This document shows, in pieces, positions 48,870 to 55,377 of a DNA stretch of 64,000 bases (position 1 is the first letter of the stretch; every line of letters begins with the position of its first letter). The notes beneath the pieces were generated by a model, which was not told the DNA's origin, ran no database searches, and saw nothing but the letters and a program-made list of their open reading frames with translations. The DNA is from Kineosporia succinea (GTDB lineage: Bacteria > Actinomycetota > Actinomycetes > Actinomycetales > Kineosporiaceae). The translations under genes and the position numbers were made by a program. Location: the NCBI RefSeq assembly GCF_030811555.1, contig NZ_JAUSQZ010000001.1:1302001-1366000 (forward strand), in the 5' to 3' direction.

Positions 48870-49373
48870 TCAGCGCCGGGGCACCGGGCGTCCCGGCTGG
48901 TCACCGCCCCGCCTGTCCAGGTAGTTCCGTTTCGGCACCATCACCTTGCGCCGGAAGGTGCACACGAGAGTTCCGTCCTGCTTGTAACCGATGGTCTCGA
49001 CGTGAACGATGCCGCGGTCGTCCTTCGTCGTGGACTCCCACCGGTCCAGCACCGTGGTCTCGCCGTAGACCGTGTCACCGTGGAAGGTCGGGGCGGTGTG
49101 CCGCAGCGACTCGATCTCCAGGTTCGCGATCGCCCGGCCGGACACGTCCGGCACCGACATCCCCAGCAGGATCGAGTAGATGAGGTTCCCGACCACCACG
49201 TTGCGCCCGAACTCGGTGCTGCCCTCCGCGTAGTGCGCGTCGAGGTGCAGGGGGTGGTGGTTCATCGTGATCAGGCAGAACAGGTGGTCGTCGGCCTCGG
49301 TCACGGTCTTGCCCGGCCAGTGCCGGTACACGGCCCCGACCTCGAACTCCTCGTAGGTTCGCCCGAACTGCAT
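48870..49373 (-). CDS. MaoC-family hydratase/dehydratase
   Basis: 167 residues from ATG 49373. Hot-dog fold with GKTVTEADDHLFCLITMNHHPLHLDAHYA, where the Asp and His of the hydratase site are visible, followed by VVVGNLIYSILLGMSV and LRHTAPTFHGDTVYGETTVLDR. The actinobacterial subgroup acts on small branched CoA thioesters such as mesaconyl-CoA (inference only). Two CitE-like lyases lie at 61777-63662, which would fit such chemistry. An in-frame GTG at 49433 is a less likely start. Confidence 0.85.
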   Translation of the reverse strand: MQFGRTYEEFEVGAVYRHWPGKTVTEADDHLFCLITMNHHPLHLDAHYAEGSTEFGRNVVVGNLIYSILLGMSVPDVSGRAIANLEIESLRHTAPTFHGDTVYGETTVLDRWESTTKDDRGIVHVETIGYKQDGTLVCTFRRKVMVPKRNYLDRRGGDQPGRPVPRR

Positions 49374-49456
49374 GGTCCTACTGTTCGTCAGGCCGGGCCC
49401 CGACGGACCGGGGTGAGGAGTGGGCTGATTCACCCCGTGCCCACTGGCGCAGATGC

Positions 49457-49480
49457 GCCGGGCCCGGGAACGGGCCCGGC
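49457..49480. other. Perfect 9-bp hairpin upstream of the aminopeptidase start
   Basis: GCCGGGCCC (49457-49465) and GGGCCCGGC (49472-49480) flank a 6-base loop, directly upstream of the presumed promoter of the gene at 49496. Role unknown. Confidence 0.5.
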
Positions 49481-49483
49481 AGG

Positions 49484-49489
49484 CACAAT
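49484..49489 (+). promoter_or_regulatory. -10-like CACAAT before the aminopeptidase gene
   Basis: CACAAT ends 6 bases before ATG 49496. The first base departs from TAnnnT, so support is weaker than at other sites. Confidence 0.35.
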
Positions 49490-49495
49490 GGTGGG

Positions 49496-50992
49496 ATGAG
49501 CGAGAACGAACCCGTGGTGCAGGGCCCCGAGGGCGAGTCGGCGAAGCCGCAGGAGGTCGAGCACCGCGAGCGCCCGAACTCGGCGGCGTTCCGGGCGTTC
49601 ATCGCCTCCGGCTGGGCGCCGCGTCCGGCCGGGCTGCCCGCCCGCCTGCCCGCCGCCGAGTACGCCGCCGACCGCCGCGCCCGGCTCGCCGCCGAGCTGC
49701 CCGGTGAGCGCCTGGTGATCCCGGCCGGTGTCTTCCGGGTGCGCAGCAACGACACCGACCACCGCTTCCGTCCGCACTCCGCGTTCGCGCACCTCACCGG
49801 CCTGGGCACCGACCGTGAGCCCGACTCCGCGCTGGTGCTGGAGCCGTCCGCCGACGGGTTCGAGGCAGTGCTCTACGTGCAGCCGCGGGCCGAGCGCGAC
49901 TCCGAGCAGTTCTACGCCGACCCGCGTTACGGCGAGCTCTGGGTCGGCGTGCGGCCCAGCCTCGAGGAGGTCGCGGCCGAGACCGGCCTGGTGTGCCGGC
50001 CGCTCGACGACCTGGTCGACGCGATCACCAAGGACGCCGAGGCGGTCAAGGTGCGCATCGTGCGTGACGCCGACCCGGCGCTCGACGCCGCGCTCGACGA
50101 GGCGCGGGGCGCTGACTCCCTCGAGGCCGACGCCGAGCTGGCCCGCGTGGTGTCCGAACTGCGGCTCGTGAAGGATGCTTTCGAGGTCGCCGAGATGCGC
50201 CGCGCGGTCGACGTCACGGCCCGCGGTTTCGCCGACATCGTGCGCGCGCTGCCCGAGGCGGTCGAGTCGGTGCGGGGCGAGCGCGTCGTCGAGACGGTGT
50301 TCGAGAGCCGTGCCCGGCGCGAGGGCAACGGCGTCGGCTACGACACCATCGCCGCGTCCGGCCCGCACGCCTGCACCCTGCACTGGATCCGTAACGACGG
50401 CCCGGTCAACGCGAACGACCTGGTGCTGGTCGACGCCGGGGTCGAGGTCGACACGCTGTACACCGCCGACGTCACGCGCACCCTGCCGGTCTCGGGCACG
50501 TTCAGCGAGCCGCAGCGCCGCGTCTACCAGGCCGTGCTCGACGCCGCCGACGCCGCGTTCGCCGCGGCCAGGCCGGGGGTGAAGTTCCGCGAGGTGCACG
50601 CCGCCGCGATGAGGTCGATCGCCGCCACCCTGGCCTCCTGGGACCTGCTGCCCTCGAGTGCCGAGGAGTCGCTGACCAAGGAGGGCCAGTTCCACCGGCG
50701 CTGGATGGTGCACGGCACCAGCCACCACCTCGGCATCGACGTGCACGACTGCGCCCAGGCCCGCAAGGAGATGTACCTCGACGCCGAGCTGAAGCCGGGC
50801 ATGGTCTTCACCATCGAGCCCGGCCTCTACTTCGGCCCGCACGACCTGCTCGCGCCCGAGGAGCTCCGCGGGATCGGGGTGCGCATCGAAGACGACGTCC
50901 TGGTCACCGAGGACGGGGTGGAGAACCTGTCCGCCGGCCTGCCCCGCGACCCGGCCGGGATCGAGGCCTGGATGGCGTCGCTGCGTTCCTGA
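49496..50992 (+). CDS. pepP: Xaa-Pro aminopeptidase (M24B, PepP)
   Basis: 498 residues. The N-terminal domain (to about 200) includes VFRVRSNDTDHRFRPHSAFAHLTGLGTD, the actinobacterial PepP variant. The pita-bread domain has GPHACTLHWIRNDGPV, DLVLVDAGVEVDTLYTADVTRTLPVSG, WMVHGTSHHLGIDVHD, MVFTIEPGLYF and GIGVRIEDDVLVT; the Asp, Asp, His, Glu, Glu dimetal ligands are all present. It removes N-terminal residues that precede proline, in the cytoplasm. ATG 49496 is preceded by CACAAT at 6 bases. Confidence 0.93.
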   Translation: MSENEPVVQGPEGESAKPQEVEHRERPNSAAFRAFIASGWAPRPAGLPARLPAAEYAADRRARLAAELPGERLVIPAGVFRVRSNDTDHRFRPHSAFAHLTGLGTDREPDSALVLEPSADGFEAVLYVQPRAERDSEQFYADPRYGELWVGVRPSLEEVAAETGLVCRPLDDLVDAITKDAEAVKVRIVRDADPALDAALDEARGADSLEADAELARVVSELRLVKDAFEVAEMRRAVDVTARGFADIVRALPEAVESVRGERVVETVFESRARREGNGVGYDTIAASGPHACTLHWIRNDGPVNANDLVLVDAGVEVDTLYTADVTRTLPVSGTFSEPQRRVYQAVLDAADAAFAAARPGVKFREVHAAAMRSIAATLASWDLLPSSAEESLTKEGQFHRRWMVHGTSHHLGIDVHDCAQARKEMYLDAELKPGMVFTIEPGLYFGPHDLLAPEELRGIGVRIEDDVLVTEDGVENLSAGLPRDPAGIEAWMASLRS

Positions 50993-51049
50993 GGCTACCG
51001 AGGTGAGCCTTCACCGCTGACCCGACCGACGCGTCCCTCATCGGCGCCC

Positions 51050-51083
51050 ACGGCCCGTTCCCCGACCCCGGGGAACGGGCCGT
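51050..51083 (+). terminator. pepP terminator, 14-bp perfect stem
   Basis: ACGGCCCGTTCCCC (51050-51063) and GGGGAACGGGCCGT (51070-51083), followed by AACGTTTTG, 57 bases after the pepP stop. Confidence 0.85.
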
Positions 51084-51517
51084 AACGTTTTGACGGGGCT
51101 GAACGATGTACTTCCGGGCGCGAGCGCCGGTCGGGGTGGTCACTACACGTGTTCACGCGTGCAGGGTCAAGCTGTAACCGGTTCTTTCGGCTGACGCCCG
51201 GATTGCGCGCCCGCTCGAGCTACCTGCGAGTTAGCATGAGCCCCGCGACCCGAACGCTGTTCCGGCACGCCCGTCCGGACGGTCAAGACGCCTGACGCGA
51301 GGCCGATGTTGCAGGTCGACCATGGTTCCCGGATGAGGGAGGTGAGATCGGTGCCGTCCAGAGATGACACCCCTGCCAGTACCGACTCCCCCGCGGATTG
51401 CGAGCTCCGCGCTGCCCTCCCGACGACAGTGAGGGTCTGCGGAGCTTCTTGAGGGCTGCGCGCCGAGCGCCACCCTTCGAGCGGGGGCACGCCTTGCCCA
51501 CCGGAGGTGAAAGACCC
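51084..51517 (+). promoter_or_regulatory. Long corA 5' leader region
   Basis: 434 bases without a conventional gene between a terminator and corA. Besides the upstream ORF, GGGCA-CGCCT-TGCCC (about 51485-51500) forms a hairpin just before the corA ribosome-binding site. I could not thread a known magnesium riboswitch (M-box) or c-di-AMP riboswitch onto it. Confidence 0.4.
51351..51452 (+). CDS. Upstream ORF in corA leader, Pro/Asp-rich start
   Basis: 33 codons from GTG 51351. GGAGGTGA, a full anti-SD match, ends 5 bases upstream, so translation is likely. The peptide begins (M)PSRDDTPASTDSPADCE, unusually rich in Pro and Asp. It lies in a 434-bp gap between the pepP terminator and corA and ends 65 bases before the corA ATG. 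A second ORF from ATG 51364 in another frame (22 codons, MTPLPVPTPPR at its start) is even more Pro-rich but has no ribosome-binding site. Known parallel: Pro/acidic leader peptides such as mgtL of Salmonella sense Mg2+ through ribosome destabilisation ahead of a Mg2+ transporter. Role here is inferred. Confidence 0.6.
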   Translation: MPSRDDTPASTDSPADCELRAALPTTVRVCGAS

Positions 51518-52657
51518 ATGGCTCGTACCAACCGCACCGGGCTCGCCCGGTCCCTGGCCCTTCCCCGGCCCCAGCTGCGCAACGTCTACCCGGCTCTGCG
51601 TTACGGACCGCTCGACGTGCTCAAGCAGCGTCTCGACGACGACGTCGACCCCAACCTCGGCCTGCTCGACGCCGCCGTCGACTGGGGTCTGTACCGCGCC
51701 GGGCGCCGCGTGCAGTCGGTGGACTTCCAGCACGCCGTGCAGCAGGCGCAGTCCGGCGAGGGGTTCGTCTGGCTGGGCCTGCACGAGCCGTCCTCCGAGC
51801 AGCTCGAGCAGCTCGGCGAGGTGTTCTCGCTGCACCCGCTGGCCCTCGAGGACTCCGCCAGTCCCCGTCAGCGTCCCAAGCTCGAACGCCACGAGAACGA
51901 CATGTTCCTGGCCATGCGCACGCTCGCCTACCTCGACTCGACCGACCGGGAGGCCGGGGGCGACGTGGTCGAGACCGGCGCCGTGATGGTGTTCGTCGGC
52001 GAGTACTTCGTGATCACCGTGCGCCACGGCAAGCACACGGCGCTCGCCGGTCTGCGGCGTCGTATGGAAGACGACCCGGAGCAGCTCGCACTCGGCCCCT
52101 CGTCGGTGCTGCACGCCGTGGCCGACAAGGTGGTCGACGACTACCTGGCCGTCGTCGACGCGGTGCAGCAAGACCTCGAGGAGATCGAGAGCACGGTGTT
52201 CGCGCCTCGCGGCAGCACCGACATCGAGCGCATCTACCAGCTCAAGCGCGACGTGATCGAGATGAAGCGCACGGTGCAGCCGCTGGCCTCGCCTCTGCGT
52301 GAGCTCTCGGAGCGACCGCGGCGGCTGATCCACGCCGAGATCCGCGAGTACTTCCGCGACGTGTCCGACCACCTGGCCCGCGTGCACGAGCAGGTCACCG
52401 GCTTCGACGAGCTGCTGACCTCGATCCTGCAGGCCGGTCTGGCCCGGGTGTCGATCGCCGAGAACGAGGACATGCGCAAGATCTCGGCCTGGGTCGCGAT
52501 CGCCGCCGTGCCCACGATGATCGCGGGCATCTACGGCATGAACTTCGACACCATGCCCGAGTTGCACCAGTCCTGGGGCTATCCGGCCGTGCTGGGGCTG
52601 ATGGCCACGATCTGCGCCGGGTTGTTCCGGGGCTTCAAGCGAAACGGCTGGTTGTAG
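51518..52657 (+). CDS. corA: CorA-family magnesium/cobalt transporter
   Basis: 379 residues. The cytoplasmic domain includes GFVWLGLHEPSSEQLEQLGEVFSLHPLALEDS and a long helix region (VDDYLAVVDAVQQDLEEIESTVF). Two C-terminal membrane segments: ISAWVAIAAVPTMIAGIYGMNF with the GMN selectivity motif, then WGYPAVLGLMATICAGLFRGF, ending with basic KRNGWL. It forms pentameric Mg2+ channels in the cell membrane. GGAGGTGA lies 7 bases before ATG 51518. The next gene starts 7 bases after its stop. Confidence 0.93.
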   Translation: MARTNRTGLARSLALPRPQLRNVYPALRYGPLDVLKQRLDDDVDPNLGLLDAAVDWGLYRAGRRVQSVDFQHAVQQAQSGEGFVWLGLHEPSSEQLEQLGEVFSLHPLALEDSASPRQRPKLERHENDMFLAMRTLAYLDSTDREAGGDVVETGAVMVFVGEYFVITVRHGKHTALAGLRRRMEDDPEQLALGPSSVLHAVADKVVDDYLAVVDAVQQDLEEIESTVFAPRGSTDIERIYQLKRDVIEMKRTVQPLASPLRELSERPRRLIHAEIREYFRDVSDHLARVHEQVTGFDELLTSILQAGLARVSIAENEDMRKISAWVAIAAVPTMIAGIYGMNFDTMPELHQSWGYPAVLGLMATICAGLFRGFKRNGWL

Positions 52658-52664
52658 AACGACA

Positions 52665-53726
52665 ATGGTGGACGCACGACACGACGGCCCGCGGTGGGGT
52701 TCCCTCACGGACGTACCCGGCTTCCGGGTGGGGCACGCGCAACGCACGGAAGACGGCTGGCTGAGCGGGGTCACGGTGGTGGTCCCGCCCGCCGGCACGG
52801 TCGGGGCGGTGGACGTGCGCGGCGGCGGTCCCGGAACCCACGAGACCGACGCGCTCGACCCGACCACCCTCGTCCCGACGGTGGACGCCGTCACCCTCAC
52901 CGGTGGAAGCGCTTTCGGCCTGGCCAGTGCCGGGGGCGTGCAGCGCTGGTGCCTGGAGCAGGGGCTCGGGTTCGCGGCCGGGCCGGTCTCCGACCCCCGT
53001 TCCGTGCTGGTGCCGATCGTGCCCGCCGCGGCCGTGTTCGACCTCGGACGGGGCGGCGACGTCGCCACCCACCCGGACGCCGAACTGGGCTACGAGGCAG
53101 CTGCTTCCGCCGGGTTCGACACCCCGCGCGGTGTGATCGGCGCGGGCACCGGAGCCCTCGCGGCCCGGATGACCCTCAAGGGCGGCATCGGCAGCGCAGC
53201 ACTGCAGCTGCCCGGCGGGGTGGTGGTCGGTGCCCTGGTCGTGCTGAACGCTCTGGGCTCGCCCCTCGACACCACGACGGGCGCCCTGCTGGGCACCGCC
53301 TTCGTCCCGCCCGGCCTGCCCCGCCCGCCGATGCCTTCCGCTGCCGAGAACGCCTCGTACCTGGCCGAACTCGCCGCAGCCGCTCCCCCGCCGGCGGCGA
53401 ACACCACACTGGCGGTGGTGGCCACCAATGCCACGCTGGATCCAGCCCGCACCCGCCGCACCGCGACCGCCGCCCACGACGGCCTGGCCCGCTCCCTCGC
53501 CCCGGCCCACACGCTGCTCGACGGCGACACGGTTTTCGCACTGGCGAGCGGCGAGGTCGAGCTGGACTTCCCGGACGTGGTGGCGGTGCAGGCCGCGGCG
53601 GCCGACGCGGTGATGCTGGCGGTCATGGACGCGGTGCTGGCCGCGACCGGCACGGACGCAACAGCTTTCGGAGGCGTCAAGGTGCCGTCGTACCGCGAGC
53701 GCTTCCCGTCACTGGTCTTCCCCTGA
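52665..53726 (+). CDS. P1-family (S58, DmpA-like) aminopeptidase
   Basis: 353 residues. SLTDVPGFRVGHAQRTEDGW, GVTVVVPPAGTVGAVDVRGGGPGTHETDAL, VDAVTLTGGSAFGLASAGGV and GVIGAGTGALAARMTLKGGIGSAAL are signature segments. NTTLAVVATNATLD marks the expected self-cleavage site with a Thr nucleophile in place of the Ser of DmpA. The family cleaves itself and forms an N-terminal nucleophile peptidase; substrates of actinobacterial members are unknown. It follows corA by 7 bases and has no evident ribosome-binding site, so coupling to corA translation is likely. Confidence 0.87.
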   Translation: MVDARHDGPRWGSLTDVPGFRVGHAQRTEDGWLSGVTVVVPPAGTVGAVDVRGGGPGTHETDALDPTTLVPTVDAVTLTGGSAFGLASAGGVQRWCLEQGLGFAAGPVSDPRSVLVPIVPAAAVFDLGRGGDVATHPDAELGYEAAASAGFDTPRGVIGAGTGALAARMTLKGGIGSAALQLPGGVVVGALVVLNALGSPLDTTTGALLGTAFVPPGLPRPPMPSAAENASYLAELAAAAPPPAANTTLAVVATNATLDPARTRRTATAAHDGLARSLAPAHTLLDGDTVFALASGEVELDFPDVVAVQAAAADAVMLAVMDAVLAATGTDATAFGGVKVPSYRERFPSLVFP

Positions 53727-53779
53727 CGCTGTCCTGAGCTGAGGCCGGTGACCGTCGCTGGGGCCGCTCGCCGCTAACG

Positions 53780-54015
53780 GTGTGGGGCTGCGGGCGTCGG
53801 CGAGGCCTGTGTCGGTGCCGGTTTCGGTGCCCACGCCGGTGCCCACGCCGGTTTCGCGGTCAGTGCCGGTGCCCACCCCGGTTTCGCGGTCAGCGCCGGC
53901 GCCCACCCCGGTGCCCACGCCGGTTTCGCGGTCAGTGCCGGTGCCCACGCCAGCGCCCACCCCGGTTTCGAGGTCAGCACCGGCGCCCACGTCGGTGTCG
54001 GTGTCAGCCAAGGCG
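53780..54015. repeat. Minisatellite of 6-bp and longer units
   Basis: Built from words such as CGGTGCCCACGC, CGGTTTCGCGGTCAGTGC and CGGCGCCCACCC in irregular tandem. All frames on both strands are open because of the repeat, giving TPVPTPVSRS on plus and GVGTGTDRET on minus. No ribosome-binding site supports either frame. Confidence 0.75.
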
Positions 54016-54171
54016 AGGTTCATGCCAGGACCAAGGCTGCAAGCGGGTCTGAGCCGAGGCCGGCCCGATGAATTTGCTGTGAGTCTGCGGCCAGAACCCC
54101 CAAGGCTGGCACCGGGTCTGAGCTGCAACCGGAATTCCGGCTACGACAGCTACGGCTACAGCAACGAAACA

Positions 54172-54205
54172 CGGCCTGTCACCCCTGGATCGGGGCGGCA
54201 GGCCG
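54172..54205. terminator. Hairpin in gap between P1 peptidase and stress-protein genes
   Basis: CGGCCTG (54172-54178) pairs with CAGGCCG (54199-54205), with CCCC/GGGG extending the stem inside. Convergent genes flank it. Confidence 0.5.
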
Positions 54206-54225
54206 CGAGACGCGTGTGGTGCGAA

Positions 54226-54299
54226 GTCAGCTCTCGTGCGAGGTCAGCTGTCGTACGAGGTCAGCTCTCGTGCGAGGTCAGCTCTGGCGCAAGGTCAGC
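54226..54299. repeat. 17-bp tandem repeat, four copies plus 6 bp
   Basis: Units at 54226, 54243, 54260 and 54277, each close to GTCAGCTCTCGTGCGAG, then GTCAGC. Unit length is not a multiple of three and the array abuts the stop of the gene at 54295. Confidence 0.85.
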
Positions 54300-55377
54300 G
54301 CTCTTGGTCGGGAGTGCTGTCGGTCGGCTGGGCGGCGGTCGGCTGCTCGGCGGCGCGCTTCTGGGCGGCCTCACGTTCGGCCTGCTCGCGACGGTGGCGT
54401 TCGGCCTCTTCGCGCTCGGCGGCCTCACGCTCGGCGGCGCGCTTGCGCTGCATCATCTCGCCGTAGGTCGGGCCGCTGACCGGCTGCTGCGGCTGGTCGT
54501 GCGGCGCTGCACCGGGCTGCCCCGCCTGCCCCACCTGGCCGAGCTGACCGGTCTGGCCCAGCGGACCGGTCTGCCCCGGCTGACCGGACTGCTCCGGCTG
54601 GCCGTAAGGCGGCTGCTGGTTCCAGGACTGGCCCCACTGCGGCGGAGGCGACTGCTGCGGGTACTGGGGCTGACCGTGCTGGTCCTGCCCGTACGGCGGC
54701 TGCCCCGGCTGACCGGGCTGGCCGTACTGACCCGGCTGGCCGTACTGACCGGGCTGGCCCGCGCCGTACTGACCGCCCTGGCCGTACTGACCCGGCTGCT
54801 GGCCGTACTGCTGCTGGTAGTGCTGCGCCTGCTGGTGCATCGGCGAGACCGGGGTGTCGGGGCGCTCGGGCTGGCTGCGGGGGCCACCCTCACTGGCCAG
54901 CTTGTCGAGCAGCTGACGCGCGGCGCCGGCCTGCTCGGACAGGCACAGCACCCGGTACTCACCGGCCACGATCTGGCTGGTGCTGGTGAAGTCGCGCCGG
55001 CCGCCGGTGAACGCGTAGGAAATGAGCCCGAACAGCCCACCGAACGCCGCACCGATCAGCATGGCGGCGAAGATGCTGAAGCCCTCGGCCGTGCCGAAGA
55101 GCGAGATCAGCAGGCCCACGAACAGACCGAACCAGGCCCCCGAGAGCAGACCGGCGATGGCCACCCGGGAGTAGGTCAGGCGGCCGGTGACGCGCTCGAC
55201 CATCTGCAGGTCGACACCCACGATGGTGACGGCCTGGACGGGAAAGTGGTTGTCGGACAGGTAGTCGACCGCACGCTGCGCCTCGAGGTACGTGGCGTAC
55301 TGCGCGATGGTGTCGCCACGGGCGGGCGTGGGCAGACCCGGCTGGGACTGCGACCGGAGCGAGCTGAGGTTCGACAT
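54295..55377 (-). CDS. Membrane protein with GSP17M-like domain and Gln/Gly/Pro-rich tail
   Basis: 360 residues. Residues about 20-95 (DTIAQYATYLEAQRAVDYLSDNHFPVQAVTIVGVDLQMVERVTG in parts) match the general-stress-protein 17M-like ferredoxin fold. Two membrane segments follow (IAGLLSGAWFGLFVGLLISLF; ILAAMLIGAAFGGLFGLISYAF as approximate). The C-terminal half is repeats of GQYGQPGQ and PQYPQQSPP, then a charged REAAEREEAERHRREQAERE helix. The tail is typical of disordered or self-associating regions. GGGGAG precedes ATG 55377 by 9 bases. Function unknown; dps downstream on the same strand but separately transcribed suggests a stress context. Confidence 0.8.
   Translation of the reverse strand: MSNLSSLRSQSQPGLPTPARGDTIAQYATYLEAQRAVDYLSDNHFPVQAVTIVGVDLQMVERVTGRLTYSRVAIAGLLSGAWFGLFVGLLISLFGTAEGFSIFAAMLIGAAFGGLFGLISYAFTGGRRDFTSTSQIVAGEYRVLCLSEQAGAARQLLDKLASEGGPRSQPERPDTPVSPMHQQAQHYQQQYGQQPGQYGQGGQYGAGQPGQYGQPGQYGQPGQPGQPPYGQDQHGQPQYPQQSPPPQWGQSWNQQPPYGQPEQSGQPGQTGPLGQTGQLGQVGQAGQPGAAPHDQPQQPVSGPTYGEMMQRKRAAEREAAEREEAERHRREQAEREAAQKRAAEQPTAAQPTDSTPDQER

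Follow-up and report, generated by a model that had tools for sequence, protein, structure and literature searches.

The window that we analysed, a stretch of 64,000 nucleotides from the 8.07-Mb, one-contig genome of Kineosporia succinea, carries a corA gene that is preceded by an intergenic gap of 525 nt. A short upstream open reading frame (uORF), led by a Shine-Dalgarno sequence (SD), is located in this gap. The features of the locus, in order of position, are the following:

51232..51237, forward strand: TAGCAT, resembling a promoter -10 element, within GTTAGCATGAGC (51230-51241), which six genomes of the genus share unchanged.
51328..51397, forward strand: 70-nt block covering the SD, start codon, and initial codons of the uORF, identical in the six genomes of the genus.
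51338..51345, forward strand: Shine-Dalgarno sequence GGAGGTGA of the uORF, read from the sequence.
51351..51452, forward strand: the uORF, encoding the leader peptide (MPSRDDTPASTDSPADCELRAALPTTVRVCGAS), with a GTG start at 51351-51353 and a TGA stop, 33 codons plus the stop.
51364..51432, forward strand: second overlapping frame (MTPLPVPTPPR...), with an ATG at 51364 and no SD.
51372..51380, forward strand: conserved P-x-S core, CCT GCC AGT (Pro-Ala-Ser), with the rare serine codon AGT.
51402..51446, forward strand: inverted repeat AGCTCCGC (51403-51410) / GCGGAGCT (51439-51446) at the end of the uORF, kept in all six Kineosporia genomes with a loop that varies in length.
51518..52657, forward strand: corA, a Mg2+ transporter gene and the presumed regulated gene, with an ATG start at 51518 and encoding 379 amino acids.

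The CorA protein of the window scored 205.2 bits with TIGR00383 corA (cut-off 200.75) and 197.3 bits with PF01544, and it is 87-90% identical to those of K. rhizophila, K. mesophila, and K. babensis. The upstream neighbour of the leader is an aminopeptidase P gene (49496-50992), while a peptidase S58 family gene (52665-53726) is located 7 nt 3' of corA on the same strand; the latter is probably cotranscribed with corA and would share the control exerted by the leader. An inverted repeat followed by GTAACGTTTTG (51051-51095) separates the aminopeptidase P gene from the corA leader. Each of the six Kineosporia genomes has a similar version of it, and it looks like the terminator of the upstream gene, although our terminator scan did not report it. 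The same scan found no intrinsic terminator in the leader of the window. The TAGCAT element may act as a promoter, in which case the leader transcript would probably begin a few bases 3' of it; a sigma-70 promoter scan reported no promoter by its criteria. We also observed CGCGTAGCAT or CGCGTAACAT close ahead of corA in several genomes of family f22, in which no uORF was seen, and the -10 element may be common to the corA genes of f22 and Kineosporia while the leader is not.

An earlier note on this DNA had described an SD, a GTG start, and an ORF of 33 codons before corA, and both the description and the coordinates hold (51338-51345 for the SD and 51351-51452 for the ORF). The uORF translates as VPSRDDTPASTDSPADCELRAALPTTVRVCGAS followed by its stop codon, which is 65 nt from the corA start. 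In the mechanical list of ORFs this frame opens farther upstream, at ATG 51306; the SD-bearing start is the GTG rather than this ATG. The second proline-rich frame that the note had pointed out (MTPLPVPTPPR) does exist in the window, but it has no SD and is not conserved outside Kineosporia, its ATG being absent from the other genera of the family that we read (for example ATA in L008 and L013), and we rejected it as a gene.

Comparison of six genomes of the genus (that of the window, the three named species, and two further ones) showed that the 70-nt block is identical in all six, while much of the remaining intergenic region varies. Only 64 of the 174 fourfold sites of corA are invariant across the same genomes. 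The block contains nine fourfold sites by our own count, so the constraint upon it exceeds that on the peptide. On the 3' side of the block the uORFs diverge, with length differences of 24, 9, and 6 nt that are all multiples of three, and the frame stays open. At the same position in other Kineosporiaceae we read MPSSDTSPGST, MPSIDSTPPST, MPPSDPSSGST, and MPSGDSPEASH, with the SD kept and an exchange of GTG and ATG as start codons. An 86-nt element was found in one copy in each of 10 of the 13 genomes of the family (E<=0.001), always ahead of corA, and two of the three genomes lacking a match (G007 and G010) carry a diverged uORF (L011 and L012). A 22-base exact piece of the 70-nt block had no match in viral_contigs.

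The CorA 5' regions were then searched at the DNA level with a frame-blind anchor, GGAGG[TG] and, after 18-50 nt, CCNNNNAGT; this removes selection by a peptide pattern of our own and makes the SD present in the leaders by construction. In the window this anchor gave two matches over both strands, with an in-frame start only at the uORF, and no in-frame anchor was found upstream of the second corA of the same genome. Among 266 CorA 5' regions, 74 contained the anchor; an in-frame start at SD distance without a stop was present in 71 of these, two were startless, and one was out of frame. The reverse strands of the 266 regions gave six matches. The in-frame anchor was missing from 195 of the 266 regions, of which some are incomplete, some are not actinobacterial, and seven more were accepted by eye. 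L004, L033, and L034 (copies of L032, L005, and L007) and L009 (whose uORF is the same as that of L008 and L010) were removed from all CorA counts.

The 71 in-frame leaders all encode Pro-x-Ser, the proline by virtue of the search pattern, with the serine at residue 6 to 10 and a spacing between start and serine that shifts by whole codons only. They start with ATG (56) or GTG (15) and represent 26 distinct N-terminal segments, the loci being related and not independent observations. An acidic residue is located between the start and the proline in 22 of the 26 segments, directly before the proline in 11, and the other four have no acidic residue before it. What is widely conserved is Pro-x-Ser(AGT), mostly with this acidic residue, and not, as in the earlier note, a richness in proline and aspartate as such. 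The forms of the leader are MDRSRPCST or MDPSRPCST in Streptomycetaceae, MSSGDPSST or MSPGDPCST in family f35, and MRSRPPSTG, MTRSEPPSSPNRS, and MSDQPPSHSC, each ending at a stop codon, in Rhodococcus, Promicromonospora, and a Propionibacteriaceae bin, respectively, with similar forms in others; Streptomyces and like labels on our G-numbered genomes are inferred from named neighbours.

When the peptide motif P.S[STPH], picked after the sequences had been viewed, was used on the 190 CorA 5' regions with at least 600 nt upstream, an SD-led uORF carrying it was found in 57; 20 dinucleotide-shuffled sets gave 0.4 on average and 2 at most, and the reverse strand gave none. Any SD-led uORF was found in 67 of these regions versus a shuffled mean of 7.75. 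The sampled corA 5' regions of families f22 (some genomes of which may be Mycobacterium), f27, f36, and f47 showed no uORF of this kind, and neither did those of the Streptomyces CorA paralogues L049, L051, L055, L056, L116, L133, L137, and L140. On a CorA tree of 149 of the 162 usable sequences, a quick tree with long branches, the leader (scored as the anchor plus L011, L012, L035, L080, L087, L130, and L139 by eye) was clustered in two deep clades and required 7 parsimony changes, 4 of them forced by well supported branches, versus a mean of 41 in shuffles, none of 500 being as low as 7. A different SD-led uORF of 40 codons with several AGT codons precedes the CorA of the second clade in L088 (Kitasatospora sp. 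A2-31; MDSSSPGRSRPRP..) and L089 (Streptomyces sp. CB01881; MECSSPGRSRPRP..), and it is perhaps a drifted form of the leader.

A sequence-only model, R1, was built from 31 Streptomycetaceae leaders of 37 references, L056 being excluded as a chance match. Its strong matches (E at most 2.4e-12) were found in 38 of 394 class-level genomes, one in each and all in family f37 (39 genomes sampled), and each of the 38 is followed by a CorA match on its own strand at a distance of 184-456 nt. Weaker R1 matches (E above 1e-5) are scattered over many genomes and have candidate status only; two of them, in f43, lie inside long coding frames, presumably SufB/SufD, and were judged to be chance matches. G282, the only f37 genome without an R1 leader, has only a distant CorA (best E 1.0e-38), and its mgtE has a leader. 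Another f37 genome, G330, was observed to carry both leaders, at corA and at mgtE.

A second frame-blind pattern, GGAGGTN{4,10}ATGN{6,16}CCTCCNAGT, run on the same 394 genomes, gave 31 matches versus 2 for the reversed control. Inspection of 30 of these loci (G161:C4 was left out) showed that 16, all in frame as [EQ]PPS, are followed on the same strand by a CorA match at a distance of 227-371 nt, that three have mgtE downstream and no CorA and are all in frame (MRSEPPS...), and that the 11 with neither transporter nearby are never in frame (0 of 11). Each of the 19 in-frame matches that we read thus precedes a Mg2+ transporter gene. The MgtE and CorA families of Mg2+ transporters are unrelated, and the presence of a similar peptide ahead of mgtE therefore strengthens the link of the leader to Mg2+. 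The downstream protein of L337 contains the Pfam domains MgtE_N, CBS, and MgtE, and the two remaining MgtE proteins share 89% and 80% identity with it.

Searches for MgtE gave matches in 20 of 80 chosen genomes (E<=1e-60), in 51 of 59 genomes in the genus of G158 (E<=1e-150), of which the 30 with loci were read, and in 24 of 246 genomes in the genus of G282. The anchor was present in 46 of 71 MgtE 5' regions and formed an in-frame [ED]PPS uORF in 45, that is in 30 of 31 regions in the genus of G158, in 15 of 25 in the genus of G282, and in none of 15 more distant regions (L356-L370). Beyond these 45, the mgtE loci L401 and L403 encode MRSEPPS and MSSEPPS behind a weaker SD. Conservation of the ORF and of its ribosome-binding site, for which the earlier note had called, was thus found in six of six genomes of the genus, at 71 of 74 CorA anchors, and in 45 of 71 mgtE 5' regions. 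The residue directly before Pro-Pro in the 45 mgtE leaders is Glu in 44 and Asp in one.

When the core codons of 24 distinct mgtE leaders were compared pairwise, the uORF frame showed 469 synonymous to 133 nonsynonymous changes; the corresponding counts for the two remaining frames were 3 to 563 and 149 to 566. These are pair counts and not independent. Judged by this pattern of substitution, the core of the mgtE leaders is kept as a coding sequence. The synonymous share was also highest in the uORF frame for the CorA leaders of f35 (0.39 versus 0.09 and 0) and for six PPS CorA leaders (0.40 versus 0.17 and 0). The Kineosporiaceae taken alone, with 0 of 11 changed codons synonymous among three distinct sequences, do not look coding, and in the Streptomyces leaders another frame about equals that of the uORF (0.30 against 0.36).

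The serine of the core is encoded by AGT in all 45 mgtE leaders, which were found by a search blind to the serine codon, and in 72 of the 84 first P-x-Ser matches after an SD and a start in the CorA 5' regions; the other 12 include the N-terminus of corA itself (L029 and L074) and an earlier serine of L008 and L010. AGT makes up 2-4% of the serine codons in the CorA genes of three groups, and the neighbouring serine codon in the mgtE leaders alternates between AGC and AGT. Because AGT is nearly fixed at this serine and yet rare in CorA genes, a purely peptide-level signal is insufficient, and the codon counts argue that a constraint at the codon or RNA level acts besides that on the peptide.

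An Rfam scan of positions 49000-54500 of the window at E up to 5 gave four weak unrelated matches and no M-box, and a scan of ten related loci at gathering thresholds gave no match. The known riboswitch that might have accounted for the locus according to the earlier note was accordingly not found: there was neither an M-box nor any credible Rfam match. The inverted repeat at the end of the uORF could possibly be an attenuator or a sequestering hairpin. Its folding z-score is -0.8 in the window, where the best 78-nt fold of the piece is another one, and ranges from -0.65 to -3.0 in five relatives; in K. rhizophila its last pair is G-C instead of C-G. Folding of the start region gave mean z-scores of -0.4 for Kineosporiaceae, -0.5 for f35, -1.0 for the PPS leaders, +0.9 for three others, and -2.4 for Streptomyces, and showed no single fold common to all leader groups. 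Tests of SD duplexes with the uORF or the downstream leader revealed no common partner.

Within the PPS subset, base pairing is possible between the SD GGAGGU and ACCUCC in the Pro-Pro codons; the start codon then falls in the loop, and the inner helices differ. The probability of this pairing is at least 0.95 in 10 of 13 leaders, and at most 5% of shuffled tails were as high in 8 of the 13. The anti-SD is lost while Pro-Pro is kept in L353 and L279 (CCC CCT) and in L355 (CCC CCC). The Pro-Pro codons of the 45 mgtE leaders vary (CCT CCC in 38, CCT CCG in four, and CCT CCT, CCC CCT, and CCC CCC in one each), so that Pro-Pro is not kept only for pairing with the SD.

The Streptomyces-type leaders have, in 29 of 34 cases, a downstream TCTTC-containing complement (GGAAGAGC) to the 3' end of the uORF (GCTCTTCC). 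Downstream of the uORF, GGAAGAGC is invariant in 19 of 19 aligned Streptomycetaceae corA leaders, with GCTCTTCC complementary to it in most; it is kept in L047 and L134 despite a changed partner and thus may have a further role. In the corA leaders of f35 (L181-L193 and L138), UUGGAGGUGGU around the SD of the uORF can pair with ACCACUCC, which sits downstream of an ACGUGC/GCACGU-like hairpin; p was under 0.05 in 7 of these 14.

Several published systems resemble these leaders in part, and the comparisons below draw on excerpts of the papers cited. The MgtL leader of mgtA in Salmonella and E. coli is likewise a short uORF ahead of a Mg2+ transporter gene with early acidic and proline codons. 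In the sections available, low Mg2+ is described as favouring dissociation of the ribosome at EPDP and a refolding that hides a Rho terminator (PMC11282234), and ribosome drop-off in the first codons at low Mg2+ is the proposed sensor (PMC11282234, PMC11552253). In contrast, the leaders described here belong to another phylum and to other transporters (CorA and MgtE) and have a fixed Pro-x-Ser with AGT; set apart from MgtL by description, they showed no likeness to it beyond acid-Pro. CorL of E. coli is, like ours, encoded by a uORF in a corA leader. According to the excerpted text, translation of corL is inverse to the expression of corA, UUG serves as the corL start codon, and the conserved part of the CorL N-terminus is said to contain just one proline (PMC11552253). 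Two traits of the MgtL/CorL mechanism class are seen in our sequences, namely an SD-led short ORF in the leader of a Mg2+ transporter gene and acidic or proline residues near the N-terminus. By analogy of kind, and not on grounds of descent, the leaders would on present evidence work like MgtL and CorL.

In actinobacteria, a Mg2+-linked leader is described in the part of PMC12810186 consulted here: the M-box (RF00380) of Mycobacterium, with the uORF Rv1805A, ahead of pe20. It shares with our leaders a conserved uORF, the link to Mg2+, and the phylum, but there the M-box aptamer senses and the uORF is the target, whereas the leaders that we searched had no M-box match; moreover, Rv1805A is described as specific to mycobacteria (PMC12810186, in part). 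The actinobacterial amino-acid attenuators (trpL, leuL, and others) also rely on a short translated leader ORF in cis, as excerpted from PMC8079986. The Pro-x-Ser leaders differ from these in that, read by eye, they have no run of codons for one regulatory amino acid, and in that the downstream genes are those of Mg2+ transporters. The corA motif RNA has been described as a candidate riboswitch, and the sections of PMC6429828 at hand report it from Gammaproteobacteria and from metagenomic DNA only.

Among the matches listed in the open-licence PMC literature, none reported that a uORF or leader peptide precedes corA or mgtE in actinobacteria, and none had the peptide strings. The excerpts cited already describe peptide-based control of the enterobacterial mgtA and corA (PMC11282234, PMC11552253) and, for actinobacteria, M-box control in mycobacteria (PMC12810186). 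As far as these partial texts go, the published cases that come nearest are the corA motif of Gammaproteobacteria (PMC6429828) and the M-box of mycobacteria with its uORF Rv1805A (PMC12810186), and both differ from the leaders described here.

Taken as sequence evidence, these results make it nearly certain that a conserved and translated uORF is present ahead of corA, and they very probably define a family of translated leader peptides for Mg2+ transport, located ahead of corA in two deep clades and ahead of mgtE. The best explanation overall, which we consider reasonably probable, is that the uORF of the window encodes a leader peptide of the corA mRNA and is a member of an actinobacterial family of Mg2+-transporter uORFs. 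By analogy with the enterobacterial systems, it is to a similar degree likely that the signal read by the uORF would be Mg2+ or a Mg2+-dependent behaviour of the ribosome. We give about even chances to a more specific form of this explanation, in which a portable cassette, [acidic]-Pro-x-Ser(AGU), would control both CorA (two deep clades) and MgtE and in which Mg2+ would be read via the stability of the ribosome or via decoding, and not by an RNA aptamer. The best mechanism, again by analogy, would be sensing of Mg2+ by ribosome drop-off or stalling, as in MgtL and CorL. When cytosolic Mg2+ is ample, efficient translation of the uORF would hold the leader in a state that ends transcription or hides the start of the transporter gene. 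At low Mg2+, the acidic and proline-containing N-terminal segment would cause drop-off or stalling of the ribosome on or close to Pro-x-Ser(AGU); the leader would then refold, in Kineosporia perhaps via the repeat AGCUCCGC/GCGGAGCU located where the uORF ends, and corA would be expressed. Control would be in cis, and the off/on mechanism might involve Rho or a hairpin. For Kineosporia itself we infer this scheme from its relatives.

The near-fixation of AGT could also mean that the signal is slow decoding of the rare AGU, or of Pro-x-AGU, and not the nascent chain: with AGU in the A site, the ribosome would pause when translation is slowed by low Mg2+ or a limiting tRNA, and the leader would switch. 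The 45 of 45 mgtE leaders and 72 of 84 CorA matches with AGT at the serine, the low share of AGT (2-4%) in the CorA genes of three groups, and the AGC/AGT variation at the neighbouring serine of the mgtE leaders are all consistent with such codon-specific attenuation. However, the proline and the acidic residue (GAA, GAG, or GAC) are kept through synonymous or conservative changes, and a signal from the serine codon alone needs neither, so that we hold this reading as a tentative one, clearly less probable than a sensing peptide; the two overlap and their probabilities are not exclusive. A reading based on RNA structure only was favoured at first on account of the 70-nt block, which is invariant at all codon positions in the six genomes of the genus. 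It supposes a Mg2+-responsive fold, either a new riboswitch-like element or an SD-sequestering hairpin, with the uORF as the expression platform, and it agrees with the SD/Pro-Pro-codon pairing of the PPS subset and with the Streptomyces leaders, in which the region folds better than shuffles and the TCTTC-containing complement lies downstream (29 of 34). Yet Rfam gave no match, the groups have no fold and no SD partner in common, the start regions of Kineosporiaceae and f35 have z-scores close to 0, Pro-Pro persists in L353, L279, and L355 despite the loss of the anti-SD, and the distance from start to serine moves by whole codons only; we keep it as a rival that is unlikely.

It is a good deal less probable that the uORF senses nothing and only raises the translation of corA and mgtE or the stability of their mRNA, by ribosome loading or reinitiation. 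The SDs are indeed very strong, and the available part of one paper proposes that actinobacterial leader genes boost translation by reinitiation (PMC4833913), but the uORF stop of the window is 65 nt from the corA start, loading of ribosomes needs no fixed Pro-x-Ser(AGT) core, and the in-frame matches inspected in the genome-wide scan were at Mg2+ transporter genes without exception (19 of 19). Least probable is an action of the peptide in trans as a functional small protein, for example by binding the transporter: the mgtE leader of genus g71 is conserved including much of its tail (e.g. MRSEPPSRRPRGAAPSHS), whereas the tails differ between groups and are reduced to as little as two residues (MRSRPPSTG, MSQPPSTG), and a similar core precedes two unrelated transporters.

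A tiny conserved gene encoding Pro-x-Ser, found in many actinobacteria before one of two unrelated transporter genes, suggests an undescribed translation-based switch of magnesium uptake. If the leader-peptide explanation is true, ribosome-based sensing of Mg2+ would have arisen or spread well outside the Enterobacteria, and Mg2+-controlled genes would be predictable by a short frame-preserving motif. Because the cassette would be shared by CorA and MgtE, the question of which feature (the acid-Pro, the Pro-x-Ser, or the AGU codon) makes the ribosome sensitive to Mg2+ would become directly testable.
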